Positions 3,092 to 21,264 of a stretch of 34,921 nt of DNA are shown in pieces. The stretch's first letter is position 1. Each line of letters begins with the position of its first letter. The stretch lies in assembly GCA_001543015.1 (NCBI GenBank), contig LFLC01000014.1:1-34921 (forward strand). Direction: 5' to 3'. A model generated the notes under the pieces. It saw only the letters and a program-made list of their open reading frames with translations. It searched no databases and was not told the DNA's origin. Made by a program: the position numbers and the translations under genes. The stretch is from Nitrosopumilus sp. LS_AOA. GTDB taxonomy: Archaea; Thermoproteota; Nitrososphaeria; Nitrososphaerales; Nitrosopumilaceae.

Positions 3092-3796
3092 TTGACAAAA
3101 ACTAATGATGTAAAGATTGTAGTTTTAAGAAAAAATCTAGAAGAAGCAGATGCGTTAGAAATTATTGAACAAAAGAAAACTACTCCTTTCAAATCTTTGT
3201 TATCTCGACCAAAAAAAGAAGATGTTCATATTCACTCCTTAAAATTATACTATGAATGCATCTTGATGGTTTCAGGAAAATACATTGCTGATTATTTTCG
3301 TCAAGCAACTCATACCATTTCAGTTGATTCCAATATTCGAGAAATTGTTTTGGGTGATGGCACTTTTCCAATTCAAACAAAATCTAGTTTGAAAAAGGCA
3401 TTTTCTGGTAAAAGAGGAAAAAACAAGATTGATTTGAAATTAGAAGAACATGTATTTGTAGAGGATGAAGATGAGTTGACTTTTGATCATCATGGACGAG
3501 AAATTAAATTCCCATTTAAGATAAACTCTAAAACAATTGAGAATTATCCTAAACGCTTACTGGAAAAAAATAAAGAAAATATCAAAAAACCAGAAATAAC
3601 AAATGCTGCAGCCATATTGAAATTACAATCCCAACTAAAAAAACCACTTGAGACTGATGTACGAAATCTTTCAGAAGAATTTGTATTGCGTGAAATTACT
3701 GAACTGTACGTTCCAATATTTGAAGCAAGGTTAATTGGTCCAAAAAAGAAAGTTGGAATTATTAGAATAGATGCTGTGAGAAAAAAGATTTTATAA
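3092..3796 (+). CDS. Conserved-looking archaeal protein of unknown function
   Basis: The protein has about 234 residues and no signal peptide or membrane segment. The N-terminal half begins with a beta-type segment (DVKIVVLRKNL) and the C-terminal half is helical and ends in a beta strand (KKKVGIIRIDAVRKK). It is basic overall with an acidic patch (VEDEDELTFD). I recognise no named family. I chose the TTG at 3092 because it sits in an A/T-rich promoter context and removes a Cys/Phe extension present from the upstream TTG at 3074. Its 3' end overlaps the convergent TPR gene by 6 bp. Confidence 0.7.
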   Translation: MTKTNDVKIVVLRKNLEEADALEIIEQKKTTPFKSLLSRPKKEDVHIHSLKLYYECILMVSGKYIADYFRQATHTISVDSNIREIVLGDGTFPIQTKSSLKKAFSGKRGKNKIDLKLEEHVFVEDEDELTFDHHGREIKFPFKINSKTIENYPKRLLEKNKENIKKPEITNAAAILKLQSQLKKPLETDVRNLSEEFVLREITELYVPIFEARLIGPKKKVGIIRIDAVRKKIL

Positions 3797-13458: not shown

Positions 13459-13836
13459 GTGACTGATTCCACTGATTCATTATATGACAAAAAATGTGAT
13501 CAATTATTAGCCGAATCTGAAATTCGTTTTGCTGGAATTGTTGATAAATCTGGTAAACTCATCGCAGGTGGTTTTAAGCAAGGAATTGCTCCACATGAAG
13601 GTGATGAAACTAGATTACAGTCATTTTTGGAGTTTGTCTCACAAGCAACTATTAGAACAGAATACGATGAGAGTTTGGGCCCAATTAATTATCTTGCAGC
13701 AAGACGCGATAAAGCTGTTTTAGTGAGTTTTCCATTCCCTATCACACAAGTTCTTTTATTGATTTCTGCAGAACCTTCTGCTAATATTGAAAATTTAGCA
13801 AAAAAAGTTGTTGAAATATTTACTGATGTTAAATAA
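13459..13836 (+). CDS. Roadblock-like small protein, thaumarchaeal family (copy 1)
   Basis: This 125-residue soluble protein starts with GTG. It has the alpha/beta order of Roadblock/LC7 or profilin-like sensors: an N-terminal helix, the strand pair FAGIVDKSGKLIAGG with a GGFKQG turn, a long helix, then VLVSFPFPITQVLLLIS. It is a paralogue of the gene at 18391: shared features are G-x-L-x-AGG-x-K-x-G, E-x-D-x2-x-G, SFP and VLLLS. I believe such proteins are catalogued as a thaumarchaeal DUF (possibly DUF6659), but that is from memory. They may act in small-GTPase or signalling complexes; the role is unknown. Confidence 0.78.
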   Translation: MTDSTDSLYDKKCDQLLAESEIRFAGIVDKSGKLIAGGFKQGIAPHEGDETRLQSFLEFVSQATIRTEYDESLGPINYLAARRDKAVLVSFPFPITQVLLLISAEPSANIENLAKKVVEIFTDVK

Positions 13837-14995: not shown

Positions 14996-15787
14996 GTGGA
15001 AGAAAAATTTCTTCAGATCGATGAAAATAAGATTAGATATTTAGAATCTGGAAATTCTAAAAAAACACTAGTACTAATTCATGGGTTGGGTGCTTCAGCT
15101 GAACGATGGGATAAAGTGATTCCTCTTTTTGCAAAACATTTTCGGGTAATCATTCCAGATCTTATTGGATTTGGATATAGTGATAAACCTCTTACAGATT
15201 ACACTTTAGATTTTTTTTCATCATTTTTAGAAAAATTTTTTGATGTGGCAAATATTCGACATCCCATTCTAATCGGTTCATCTTTAGGCGGACAAATTGC
15301 TGCTGAATACACTGCTGATCATCCACAAAATATAGAAAAACTAATTCTTGTTTCTCCTTCTGGTGTGATGAAACAATCTACTCCTGCCCTAGATTCATAC
15401 ATTATGGCTGCATTATATCCAAATGAGCAAAATGCAAAAAATGCTTTTGAGTTAATGGAGTGTTCTGGAGATAATATTGATGAAAAAATTATTACTGGAT
15501 TTGTTGAACGAATGAAATTGCCTAATGCAAAACTTGCTTTCATGTCTACTCTTTTAGGGCTAAAAATTGCTAAAGTGATTACAACAAAATTACAATCTAT
15601 TAAAACCCCTACTTTGATAATTTGGGGGACTAATGATCCTGTTATCCCAATTCAGCATGCTGATGAATTTGTTGCATCGATTAAAGATTGTAAATTTCTT
15701 AGTATGGATAATTGTGGTCATACTCCATATGCTCAAGATCCAAATTCTTTTGTAACTATTGTTCTAAAATTTCTCAAAGTACATTAG
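14996..15787 (+). CDS. Alpha/beta hydrolase
   Basis: The protein has 263 residues and starts with GTG. Oxyanion-hole motif HGLGAS (29-34), nucleophile Ser96 in GSSLGG, acid Asp214 in WGTNDPVIP and His242 in CGHTPYAQDP form a complete catalytic triad. There is no signal peptide. It belongs to the broad esterase/C-C hydrolase group and the substrate is not predictable. It precedes the phasin-like genes by 36 bp on the same strand, so it may be part of the PHA locus, for example a depolymerase or thioesterase; that is inference from position only. Confidence 0.9.
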   Translation: MEEKFLQIDENKIRYLESGNSKKTLVLIHGLGASAERWDKVIPLFAKHFRVIIPDLIGFGYSDKPLTDYTLDFFSSFLEKFFDVANIRHPILIGSSLGGQIAAEYTADHPQNIEKLILVSPSGVMKQSTPALDSYIMAALYPNEQNAKNAFELMECSGDNIDEKIITGFVERMKLPNAKLAFMSTLLGLKIAKVITTKLQSIKTPTLIIWGTNDPVIPIQHADEFVASIKDCKFLSMDNCGHTPYAQDPNSFVTIVLKFLKVH

Positions 15788-15823
15788 ATTCATTTAAATA
15801 CCTTTTAATTCCAATTTCTACCA

Positions 15824-16255
15824 ATGAGTGGTAATAATAACCCATATAATCCTGCAGTGATGTTTAAGGATTGGATTCAAAAGAGTGGAAATGCTCAAAC
15901 AGAATTCATGAAAAACTTTGGATCACTGATGATGACTAATCAAACTAGTCAAACATTCAATCCATTAGATACTCTCAAAGGAGTTGCTGATAGTACAAGA
16001 CAAGCCCAATCAAATATGATGCAAAATGTATCATCTATGCAAAACCAAAACATGAATACAATGTTTAGCATTGGACAAATGCTTCCATCATTTATGAATT
16101 GGGGTGCTTTCAAAACCACTATCGGAAGTAATGGTAGAATTTCAATTCCTGAGGCAGAACGCAAGGCCCTTGAATTAAGTGAAGGTGATTTAGTACAAGT
16201 AATCATTCTTCCAATAGCAAAAAAATCATCAAAAGCTAGGGGGGTGAAAAATTGA
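15824..16255 (+). CDS. Phasin-like protein with C-terminal AbrB/SpoVT domain
   Basis: The protein has 143 residues. Residues 1-90 are Asn-, Gln- and Met-rich and probably helical, like granule-associated phasins. Residues 97-131 are an AbrB/SpoVT-type DNA-binding swapped-hairpin domain (TTIGSNGRISIPEAERKAL then GDLVQVIILP). In Haloferax mediterranei an AbrB-like protein, PhaR, both binds PHA granules and represses phasin synthesis, so this fusion is a good candidate for an archaeal granule-linked regulator; that analogy is inference. The following phasin gene begins inside the stop codon (TTGA overlap), so the two are translationally coupled. Confidence 0.8.
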   Translation: MSGNNNPYNPAVMFKDWIQKSGNAQTEFMKNFGSLMMTNQTSQTFNPLDTLKGVADSTRQAQSNMMQNVSSMQNQNMNTMFSIGQMLPSFMNWGAFKTTIGSNGRISIPEAERKALELSEGDLVQVIILPIAKKSSKARGVKN

Positions 16256-16680
16256 GTAAAAACGAACAAACACAATCAAATCCAAAAGATATATTTTCTG
16301 TATATCAGCAAAACGTGGATAAATTCTTCAATGGTATTAGAAAATCAGTACCACAGTATCATCAAGCAATTACTAACGTACAACAGGAATTCATACAATC
16401 TTATGAAAACATTGCAGATTCAGCAGTTTCATTACAAAAAGAATATGCAAAGAAAGCAGGTATTGCAGCAAACATTCCAGAAGATACAATCAAAGTAATT
16501 CAAGATACAACAGAAAAAATCGTAAAGGCTACATCAATTCAAAATCAGGTTACACTTGCAACTATTGATGCTGTACAACAAAATATCAAAACCTTTAACG
16601 ATAACGCAAATTCATTTGCTGAGCTAAATAGAAACATTCTACAATCTTGGATTTCGGTATTCTCTACAAAAACCAACTAG
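16252..16680 (+). CDS. Phasin-like PHA granule protein
   Basis: The protein has 142 residues, starts with TTG and is entirely helical with amphipathic heptad-like character. It has no Cys or Trp-rich core except one C-terminal Trp. Regions such as DIFSVYQQNVDKFFNGIRKS and ENIADSAVSLQKEYAKKAG resemble phasin repeats that coat polyhydroxyalkanoate granules. It is coupled to the AbrB-type gene and converges with phaC (24-bp gap). The assignment rests on composition and on its place in the PHA locus. Confidence 0.72.
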   Translation: MSKNEQTQSNPKDIFSVYQQNVDKFFNGIRKSVPQYHQAITNVQQEFIQSYENIADSAVSLQKEYAKKAGIAANIPEDTIKVIQDTTEKIVKATSIQNQVTLATIDAVQQNIKTFNDNANSFAELNRNILQSWISVFSTKTN

Positions 16681-16704: not shown

Positions 16705-17769
16705 TCATGATCTTTCTAATAACCATTTTCCAAGCTCTGGCAACACTTTCTTTTGTGATAATGAACTAGCTATCATTCCTACATGTCCTGTTGGATACAT
16801 TCGTAATGTTTTATCCTTACTTCCTACTGCATAATGAAGTGGCATACTGCATTCTGGTGATACTAGGTGGTCTCCCACTGCTACTTGAGTAAAAATAGGC
16901 ATTGTGATTTTCTTCAAATCAATTAGCTGATTTCCTACATACATTTTATTCTGAATTAACAAATTATCTTGATAGATATCTTTGATCCATTGTTTGAATA
17001 ATTCTCCTGGAATTGGTGGTGTATCGCTTAACCATTTTTCCACTCTTAGGAAACTATCTACAAATTTTTTATTTTCAATATTCTTGAAAAAATTGACATA
17101 TTTTTCAATACCTTGCTCGAATGGTTTGAGTACTGAAAAACAATAATACATGAATTCTGGAGGCATATTTCCAACTACTTCCACCATTTTATCCACATCC
17201 ATATGCTTTGCAAGATTGCTAATTACTGTGGTATCGCGCCATCCATCAATTACTGGTGCAGTTGCAATGTAATTTTTTACATTTTCAGGATGAAGTGTGA
17301 TGTATGCCGTAGCTATTGTTGCACCTGTACAATATCCTTGTAATGAAATTTTTTCTACTGATGATTCATTTTTGATGTATTCAACATATGCATCCAAATA
17401 CCCATTTACATAATCATCAAAATCCAAATATTTGTCCATGCTAGTTGGTGTGCCCCAATCTAACATGTATACATCAAATCCTTGTTGAAGCAAATTCCTC
17501 ACCCAACTTTTTTCAGGATGAATATCTAGAATGTGATATCGATTAATTAATGCATATGAAATTAACAATGGTGTTTTGTGTTGTTTATCAGTAAGTGGGG
17601 CATAATGCAATAATCTCGTTTTATCCATTTCTTGGACTACATCATGCTTTGTTACCTCTAAACTAATTTCATCAGGAGCTGAAACTAATTTTGGTGCATC
17701 AATTACATTTTTACTGAATTTTAAAATCTCCTCAAAAATTTTTGGATCTATTGCTGACTCATTTTGCAT
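16705..17769 (-). CDS. phaC: Class III polyhydroxyalkanoate synthase catalytic subunit PhaC
   Basis: This 354-residue protein has the usual size of class III PhaC. The lipase-like box is GYCTG with catalytic Cys147 replacing Ser, as in PHA synthases. Asp300 (AVGDHLVSPE) and His329 (PTGHVGM) complete the triad. Other family marks are DVYMLDWGTPT and FDDYVNGY. It polymerises (R)-3-hydroxyacyl-CoA into polyester granules with PhaE. Its ATG lies inside the 3' end of phaE, overlapping by 11 bp, so translation is coupled. PHA synthesis genes are known in ammonia-oxidising archaea, where the polymer is a carbon and reductant reserve. Confidence 0.96.
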   Translation of the reverse strand: MQNESAIDPKIFEEILKFSKNVIDAPKLVSAPDEISLEVTKHDVVQEMDKTRLLHYAPLTDKQHKTPLLISYALINRYHILDIHPEKSWVRNLLQQGFDVYMLDWGTPTSMDKYLDFDDYVNGYLDAYVEYIKNESSVEKISLQGYCTGATIATAYITLHPENVKNYIATAPVIDGWRDTTVISNLAKHMDVDKMVEVVGNMPPEFMYYCFSVLKPFEQGIEKYVNFFKNIENKKFVDSFLRVEKWLSDTPPIPGELFKQWIKDIYQDNLLIQNKMYVGNQLIDLKKITMPIFTQVAVGDHLVSPECSMPLHYAVGSKDKTLRMYPTGHVGMIASSLSQKKVLPELGKWLLERS

Positions 17770-18337
17770 TTTTCTTCATCTCCTTCTTCTTTAACTCTAA
17801 TTCTAATTTCCCTACTCTTTTTTTCAAAGTATGAATTTCTTTGTAAACCTCATCAATCTCTTCTTTACTTGGAAGATTTACTGATTGCAAAATTACATTT
17901 GTAATGTTATTCCAATGTTTCGTTAGTTCTAATTCTTTTGATACAAGTTTTCCATAATTTTCTCCAAACTTCTTTGAATCAAATAATTCTGTAAAATCAT
18001 TATCAAAAATATCTATCCAAATTCTCTTGAATGCCTCTATTTGTTCAACATCGTGAGGAACTTCAGGAGCTTTAATATTTACTTTCTTTTGTGCATCAGT
18101 CCATGTGTCTGAAAGTTGTTTGTAGTATTCTGTATAGTATTGATTAAATCCCATTAACACTTCATTAATTTCAATTAATTCTGTTGAAACTTTTTTTGAA
18201 TTTGATGCAAATGCCCTCATTGGACCAATAGAGTTCAAAGCTTGTGGTTTACTTGCCATTAGATGCATGATATCTGTCCAGAACAGGGACAAATGCTTGT
18301 AATATCCACTAATATCTTTAGGAGACTCTGATTGCAC
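17759..18337 (-). CDS. phaE: Class III PHA synthase subunit PhaE
   Basis: This 192-residue helical protein starts with GTG. It resembles the PhaE subunit (Pfam PHA_synth_III_E): a central segment with Trp residues (LSDTWTDAQKKV, FKRIWIDIFDNDFTELF) and a C-terminal coiled coil rich in Lys and Glu (EIHTLKKRVGKLELELKKKE). PhaE activates and stabilises PhaC. It is the first gene of the phaEC operon and overlaps phaC by 11 bp. The start is divergent from the roadblock-like gene at 18391 with 53 bp between them. Confidence 0.9.
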   Translation of the reverse strand: MQSESPKDISGYYKHLSLFWTDIMHLMASKPQALNSIGPMRAFASNSKKVSTELIEINEVLMGFNQYYTEYYKQLSDTWTDAQKKVNIKAPEVPHDVEQIEAFKRIWIDIFDNDFTELFDSKKFGENYGKLVSKELELTKHWNNITNVILQSVNLPSKEEIDEVYKEIHTLKKRVGKLELELKKKEMKKNAK

Positions 18338-18390
18338 AGATACCTAATAATACAGATCGCAATAAATAGTTCGATTGTTTAATTAGACAA

Positions 18391-18783
18391 ATGGACAATG
18401 TTGAAGAGCTTGAAAAAATATGTCAAAAAATTATTAAATTAAATTCAAAAATGCGTTCTGCTCGATTTATCAATAGTCGAGGCCATTTAATGGCTGGAGG
18501 GATGAAAAAAGGATTACTTTCCCTTGAAGCTCAAAAACAAGATGAAATGATGTTCATGGAACTTGCTTTACGTGTGAGAATGAGACATGAATTTGATAAA
18601 GAATTTGGTGAGGTTCATTTCTCAATGTCTTATCGAAGTAAGGTGATAGTGATGAGTTTTCCATTATCTAATGATGATGTTTTATTACTTTCTTGTGAAA
18701 AAGAAATAGACTTTGGTTCTATGGCATTCAAAGTTCTAAAAATAATAGAACCTATAAAAAAATCTCCTACAAAGACATTCTAA
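18391..18783 (+). CDS. Roadblock-like small protein, thaumarchaeal family (copy 2)
   Basis: The protein has 130 residues and is a paralogue of the product at 13459: matching features are RGHLMAGGMKKG (G-x-L-x-AGG-x-K-x-G), HEFDKEFGEVHF, IVMSFPLS and DVLLLSC. It differs by an extra Arg/Met-rich helix (RVRMRHEF). It is divergent from phaE with a short gap, so its promoter may be shared with phaEC. The function is unknown; the fold suggests a small-molecule or GTPase-interaction module. Confidence 0.75.
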   Translation: MDNVEELEKICQKIIKLNSKMRSARFINSRGHLMAGGMKKGLLSLEAQKQDEMMFMELALRVRMRHEFDKEFGEVHFSMSYRSKVIVMSFPLSNDDVLLLSCEKEIDFGSMAFKVLKIIEPIKKSPTKTF

Positions 18784-20805: not shown

Positions 20806-21264
20806 ATGACTGAAATCAGATCAGGTGAAATTATCTATGATTTACGAAAAAAAATACAACAAATTCAATTTGATTTAAAACAATTAGGTGAACCAATATC
20901 TGAAATACCAGAATTGATCTCATCTGCAAATTTGGTGCGTTCAAATGAATATCTCTTAAATGTAAATGATAAAAAATCTGAATTACTGAGTGCATATGAA
21001 CAACACACTAATGCATTAGAAGAATTACTTTCTTCTGTTTTTGAAATCCAACATGACCTGAAAGAAATTTTGAAGGAACAATCTTCCTTAATTCCTTCTT
21101 CAAGAAAAAAACAAACCAAACCTAAACCTAAATCAAAATCAAAACCTAAATCAAAATCAAAACCTAAATCAAAATCTAAACCTAAACCTAAATCAAAATC
21201 AAAATCAAAATCTAAACCTAAATCAAAATCTAAACCTAAATCCAAACCTAAATCAAAGAAATAA
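20806..21264 (+). CDS. Coiled-coil protein with histone-H1-like Lys/Ser/Pro tail
   Basis: The protein has 152 residues. Residues 1-100 are helical and polar (KKIQQIQFDLKQLGEPISEI, ELLSSVFEIQHDLKEILKEQ). Residues 101-152 are a low-complexity tail built from KPK, KSK and KPKSKS units, strongly basic and without acidic residues. Such tails bind DNA or RNA non-specifically, as in histone H1 and in Pseudomonas PhaF, a phasin with a histone-like tail. The coding DNA of the tail (about 21117-21260) is itself a simple repeat and is prone to length change. It converges with birA (2-bp gap). The function is inferred, not shown. Confidence 0.78.
   Translation: MTEIRSGEIIYDLRKKIQQIQFDLKQLGEPISEIPELISSANLVRSNEYLLNVNDKKSELLSAYEQHTNALEELLSSVFEIQHDLKEILKEQSSLIPSSRKKQTKPKPKSKSKPKSKSKPKSKSKPKPKSKSKSKSKPKSKSKPKSKPKSKK
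21117..21260 (+). repeat. Low-complexity coding repeat (Lys/Ser/Pro codons)
   Basis: The tract consists of CCTAAA, TCAAAA and TCTAAA hexamers that encode the basic tail of the gene at 20806. Runs of identical hexamers make it a likely site of slippage. Confidence 0.85.

Follow-up and report, generated by a model that had tools for sequence, protein, structure and literature searches.

The window analysed here is a stretch of 34,921 nucleotides from Nitrosopumilus sp. LS_AOA, which forms one contig of a 1.93-Mb genome. We located a PHA locus near its middle, with the following features.

14996-15787, + strand: alpha/beta hydrolase gene immediately 5' of phaR; its product is a candidate PHA depolymerase
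15793-15800, + strand: TATA-like box of phaR, TTTAAATA, ending 23 nt before the ATG
15819-15833, + strand: candidate operator for PhaR, TACCA-ATGAG-TGGTA, a pair of boxes at 10-bp spacing across the phaR start codon
15824-16255, + strand: phaR, 143 aa, a PhaR homologue; N-terminus helical, AbrB domain at the C-terminus
15833-15937, + strand: first copy of a duplicated N-terminal segment (PhaR residues 4-38), putative granule-binding helix
15944-16045, + strand: second copy of the segment (PhaR residues 41-74), which is the one alignable to haloarchaeal PhaR
16112-16204, + strand: match to an AbrB-like DNA-binding domain (PhaR residues 97-127; TIGR01439)
16252-16680, + strand: phaP, 142 aa, TTG start, 4-nt overlap with phaR; two-helix protein, putatively phasin-like
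16705-17769, - strand: phaC, catalytic subunit of a class III PHA synthase (TIGR01836, 406.8 bits, cut-off 365.3)
17759-18337, - strand: phaE, subunit of a class III PHA synthase (PF09712, 45.5 bits, cut-off 25.7)

The phaR and phaP genes converge on phaC and phaE, and phaR and phaC co-occurred in 16/20 Nitrososphaerales stretches. The class III assignment is based on PhaC, which exceeds its NCBIfam cut-off, and on PhaE, which exceeds its Pfam cut-off and lies under that of NCBIfam (43.1 vs 154.95). The hydrolase gene was present in 18/20 Nitrososphaerales stretches and lies beside phaC or phaR in other families too; its second-best NCBIfam match, below the cut-off, is an intracellular short-chain PHA depolymerase. 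Genes for DUF6659 proteins (13459-13836 and 18391-18783) flank the PHA locus, a place kept in most relatives of the same genus. The divergent phaE/DUF6659 promoter (18338-18390) contains a conserved near-palindrome over a TATA-like stretch, ATCGAACTATTTATTGCGAT, and in most relatives a GATCGC element is also found ahead of the hydrolase gene. The near-palindrome and the GATCGC element may belong to another regulator.

The initial annotation had described the PhaR protein as an Asn/Gln/Met-rich helical N-terminus followed by a C-terminal AbrB domain, and both parts were recovered. Asn, Gln and Met together account for 39% of residues 1-92 and for only three of the last 51 residues, while TIGR01439 matched residues 97-127 above its NCBIfam cut-off (29.5 vs 28.3 bits); in the Pfam protein scan, MazE_antitoxin fell just under its own (23.5 vs 24.7). 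The structure prediction proposed for the N-terminal region gave helices at residues 10-36 and 47-73 in AlphaFold2, at low confidence (mean pLDDT 63.8). Foldseek searches with this weak model placed AbrB/SpoVT folds in the top ranks, none of them significant. The best solved relative by sequence is 2glw (PhS018; E 4e-9), which has an AbrB-like fold of the AbrB/SpoVT/MazE type. Its chain of 92 residues is matched twice by the AbrB domain alone, and therefore leaves no space for a helical N-terminal region as long as that of PhaR.

PhaR homologues were detected in 34/37 genomes of the same genus and in 5/24 other genomes of the order, and on this conservation we regard phaR as a real gene, not a chance reading frame. 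In a draw of 299 genomes from the phylum, 53 matched PhaR at E 1e-6, all of them in the order of the window and 47 in its family; among the misses listed in the same draw, three belong to that order. In the phylum of the haloarchaea, 27/196 genomes gave a PhaR match.

Within the helical N-terminus, residues 4-38 and 41-74 are copies of one segment. In 46 PhaRs from the family of the window the duplication scored 36.3, which none of 400 shuffled controls reached (mean 7.0, highest 25.6). By comparison of sequences, this duplicated segment is what distinguishes PhaR of the window's family from haloarchaeal PhaR. The Pfam scan of the N-terminus returned no phasin family, the amphipathicity of its helices did not exceed that of shuffled sequences, and a profile comparison of PhaR with the neighbouring PhaP detected no shared phasin segment (0.4%).

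The TTGA overlap with the second gene, also noted in the initial annotation, was confirmed: the two reading frames share 4 nt, and this arrangement is kept in 24/30 loci (L001-L030). The remaining six comprise one contig end, one locus that yielded no phaP, one gap of +4, two with approximately 250 bp between the genes, and one rearrangement. The product of the second frame (16252-16680) matched no trusted family, with only weak matches to ApoLp-III and REF below their cut-offs. A single-sequence model of low confidence contains two long helices, whose amphipathicity is only just beyond that of shuffles (0.59 vs 0.57). Against solved structures the best match had E 0.014, to helical proteins that are alike only by appearance. 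This protein is putatively a phasin.

By sequence, the protein encoded at 15824-16255 is homologous to haloarchaeal PhaR: its domains follow the same order, and its gene has the same operon partner. The best match of the window PhaR was phaR in all 20 haloarchaeal genomes taken from 80, and the reverse search agreed (3e-11, with the next match at 0.41); these best-match searches place the protein nearer to haloarchaeal PhaR than to AbrB proteins of other kinds. A profile of 21 Nitrososphaerales PhaRs aligned with one of 19 haloarchaeal PhaRs at E 1.2e-25 over 85 columns, covering part of the helical N-terminus. The view that the protein resembles haloarchaeal PhaR in concept but has its own architecture thus did not hold, because the layout, the best matches in both directions and the profile match all join the two. 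As in the haloarchaeal type, phaP, with its putative phasin product, lies directly 3' of phaR, and phaE and phaC occupy the same locus. The system is best explained as the ammonia-oxidising-archaeal branch of archaeal PhaR-PhaP.

Scanning named genomes gave 331 confirmed relatives, and the best 80 of these 331 loci were analysed. All four genes, phaR, phaP, phaE and phaC, were present in 73 of these best 80 loci; four lacked a recognised phaP and three, on short contigs, lacked phaC. On two haloarchaeal plasmids (L033, L037) the gene for an AbrB protein is followed by those for a hypothetical protein, PhaE and PhaC, in that order. Haloferax larsenii and Haloferax elongans stand in for Haloferax mediterranei, whose phaR is in neither the plasmid collection nor the best 80 of the 331 loci. 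The founding studies of H. mediterranei phaRP are reportedly those of Cai et al. (2012, 2015). Shared by the window and the haloarchaeal system are the C-terminal AbrB-like domain, the helical N-terminus, a phaP that overlaps phaR or follows it closely, and phaE-phaC in the same locus. The differences, beyond the duplicated segment, lie in the surroundings: phaE-phaC is convergent in the window, whereas it is downstream in haloarchaea, and phaR is accompanied by the alpha/beta hydrolase gene instead of the haloarchaeal phaJ/maoC. The putative phasin of the window is not alignable to haloarchaeal PhaP, and the profile comparison revealed no detectable homology (5.8% probability).

Among 14 stretches taken from the search of the haloarchaeal phylum, mostly around weaker matches, three (L163, L170, L172) contained both a phaC-like and a phaJ-like gene, the former no more than a few kb from the gene for the PhaR-like protein; the other 11 had no phaC within the stretch. 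The PhaR-like proteins of these three have a shorter helical N-terminus, and their genomes look non-haloarchaeal within that phylum. PhaR-like proteins near phaC and phaJ in these genomes indicate that the family is wider than the haloarchaea. Two of the best 80 loci, with phaR of the haloarchaeal type, come from MAGs labelled bacterial (L088, Salinivenus; L136, Ectothiorhodospiraceae), for which mis-binning seems likelier than transfer.

The initial annotation had suggested a search for an AbrB binding site in the promoter regions 15788-15823 and 18338-18390. A candidate was detected at the first of these, at 15819-15833, running into the gene, and none was detected in the second. The sequence TACCA-ATGAG-TGGTA at this position has no second match anywhere in the window, where 0.03 would be expected, and no other box pair was found there, the phaE/DUF6659 promoter included. 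Within the family, TACC-N7-GGTA spans the phaR start at 31/47 loci (24/33 in the genus and 7/14 in other genera) and the direct form, GGTA-ATG...GGTA, at 6/47; the left box occurs in both orientations at the same spacing. Neither form was present at 10/47 loci, among them L196, through a wrongly placed start. When exact boxes were counted from -60 to +20, a 10-bp pair was found in 22/46 family phaR loci (24/46 had none) and at only 2/227 other starts of the same loci, both of them phaP, giving a Fisher value of 1e-17 that overstates the strength because the loci are related. No 10-bp pair was present at six phaR loci belonging to the order's other families. The right-hand box falls within the coding region, at a place that is conserved at the protein level too; the Gly codon inside it is GGT in 32/32 genus loci, whereas neighbouring genes use GGT for 27% of theirs. 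Inverted repeats with arms of at least 6 covered 10/16 phaR starts and 3/123 other starts, all three belonging to a methyltransferase gene. The inverted pair was not enriched genome-wide (29 vs 35 for the reversed control, nine genomes); hence nothing points to a large regulon, and the pattern by itself lacks specificity.

Transcription start sites can be placed from the spacing of archaeal promoters. Since the TATA-like box ends 23 nt upstream of the ATG, phaR transcription probably starts at the ATG, with the boxes covering the start. This placement would make the phaR transcript leaderless.

The same boxes were observed before haloarchaeal phaR. The upstream regions of the best 80 of the 331 loci contained 139 TGGTA/TACCA boxes, or 1.74 per region compared with 0.25 in shuffled sequence, and the distance between boxes was exactly 10 bp in 52 cases and 20 bp in 24. 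A pair at 9-11 bp occurred in 35 of these best 80 regions (0.1 when shuffled), and 45 had none. The boxes are rare before the other haloarchaeal genes: 8 in 78 regions of phaE, 0 in 77 of phaC and 2 in 74 of phaP. They sit far upstream of the haloarchaeal phaR start, whereas in the family of the window they lie over the start codon. Among seven PhaR-like genes from other genomes of the haloarchaeal phylum, a 10-bp pair was seen in four (L165, L166, L171, L172, of which L165 and L171 are almost the same sequence) and not in the other three (L163, L167, L170). In the genus, where phaP stands apart from phaR, three boxes at 10-bp steps precede a TATA-like stretch in 3/3 genomes (G024, G006, G011); phaP of two genomes in family f2 (L039, L042) has boxes but no 10-bp pair. 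The compared loci are related, and their sequences are hence not independent.

The phaRP promoter of haloarchaea is reported to have four tandem repeats (PMC9049629, PMC7137286), and the cis-element has been called semi-palindromic and placed just upstream of the BRE (PMC6085418). A repeated cis-element at the phaRP promoter is present here as a sequence pattern, in a comparison made with haloarchaeal elements other than that of H. mediterranei itself. TGGTA was not found in the phaRP literature searched, which lay largely outside subscription journals, and the haloarchaeal repeat sequence may already be in print, for instance in the founding studies. The candidate operator shared with haloarchaea appears to be a new element in the present locus.

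Haloarchaeal PhaR has been described in H. mediterranei as a protein with a C-terminal AbrB-like domain that represses phaRP and is found on granules, and the phaRP promoter was less active without granules (PMC9049629, PMC7137286). Bacterial PhaR (PHB_acc; Cupriavidus/Ralstonia, Bradyrhizobium) works alike, being described as a repressor of phaP that attaches both to PHB granules and to the promoter of phaP. The window protein differs in its DNA-binding fold, which is AbrB, and no match to the bacterial PhaR (PHB_acc) Pfam families was obtained at E up to 1.

We propose that the C-terminal AbrB domain of PhaR would bind the TGGTA boxes, 10 bp apart, that cover its own transcript start, and that bound PhaR would repress phaR and phaP together. 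Once PhaE and PhaC begin PHA granules, the N-terminal helices would attach to the granule surface, free PhaR would fall, and the released phaRP would supply PhaP to coat the new surface. The most likely mode of action is repression of phaRP by PhaR until the protein is titrated onto granules, as reported for H. mediterranei, and the DNA binding, granule binding and titration assigned to PhaR in the window are drawn from this analogy. The gene layout, the homology, the phased boxes and the boxes that stay with a separated phaP can be read in the DNA compared; a single protein that meets both granule and DNA and is coupled to a phasin would be the best explanation, and it fits the reviews on haloarchaeal PhaR. 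We assign the whole PhaR-PhaP titration explanation a probability of roughly 0.7.

An autoregulatory DNA-binding repressor without granule sensing, whose N-terminus oligomerises and whose signal comes from another regulator or a metabolite, would account for an N-terminus with no phasin family match, no similarity to PhaP and no amphipathicity beyond shuffles. A second regulator, PspR, is reported to act on the phaRP promoter of H. mediterranei as well (PMC10948481). We consider this reading unlikely, as haloarchaeal PhaR, homologous over part of the N-terminus, is reported on granules (PMC7137286), and the N-terminal segment, once duplicated, has been retained solely in a protein linked to PHA genes. 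The start-codon sequence could also be a translation or transcription-start signal whose likeness to the haloarchaeal repeats is due to chance: it sits on the start codon, is half coding, and belongs to a pattern with no genome-wide enrichment. This is quite improbable given that, among the 227 other starts of the same loci, the pair is confined to two phaP starts, that the left box keeps its spacing in either orientation, and that the same box and 10-bp step recur far upstream of haloarchaeal phaR and before the TATA box of the separated phaP.

The overlapping genes and the Pfam name MazE_antitoxin might suggest a toxin-antitoxin module, with an AbrB/MazE-type antitoxin and a small partner. 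The partner matches no toxin family, and PhaR is tied to phaC across families, to phaE-phaC in haloarchaea, and is near-universal in the genus (34/37); on this genomic context the antitoxin reading was rejected as scarcely credible.

Extending the PhaR-PhaP titration circuit, one operator code, TGGTA boxes at a 10-bp step read by PhaR, may have been kept across two archaeal phyla, Halobacteriota and that of the ammonia oxidisers, and may follow phaP out of the operon, even though the phasin has changed beyond recognition; we regard the chances of this as evenly balanced. If it is true, a granule-titrated circuit in abundant marine nitrifiers would be predictable from DNA alone. For PHA storage in Nitrosopumilus maritimus, the genes listed in the available text of one study are PhaE, PhaC and degradation enzymes, and PhaR, which was searched for as a KEGG term, is absent from the six genes that the study reports (PMC11082331). 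We found no description of the phaR-phaP pair for ammonia oxidisers in the literature searched, which lay largely outside subscription journals. To the PHA genes of a major marine nitrifier group, the present locus would add a regulator together with a candidate family of phasins and a candidate operator open to testing, and suggests how ammonia-oxidising archaea tie coat protein to stored carbon. A marine ammonia oxidiser would thereby possess the same kind of self-regulating storage-granule switch as the salt-loving archaea, with short DNA signals that look conserved between these distantly related groups.

Several minor features were observed besides. Positions 20806-21264 of the window encode a protein whose tail is a long lysine/proline/serine repeat. 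One box pair in genome G000 sits within a coding frame, and a second occurs there in L179. In genome G018, two 10-bp box pairs (L177:3068-3084 and L177:3805-3821) flank a DUF6659-like gene (3301-3681, - strand) outside the PHA locus, and this gene is possibly a further PhaR target.
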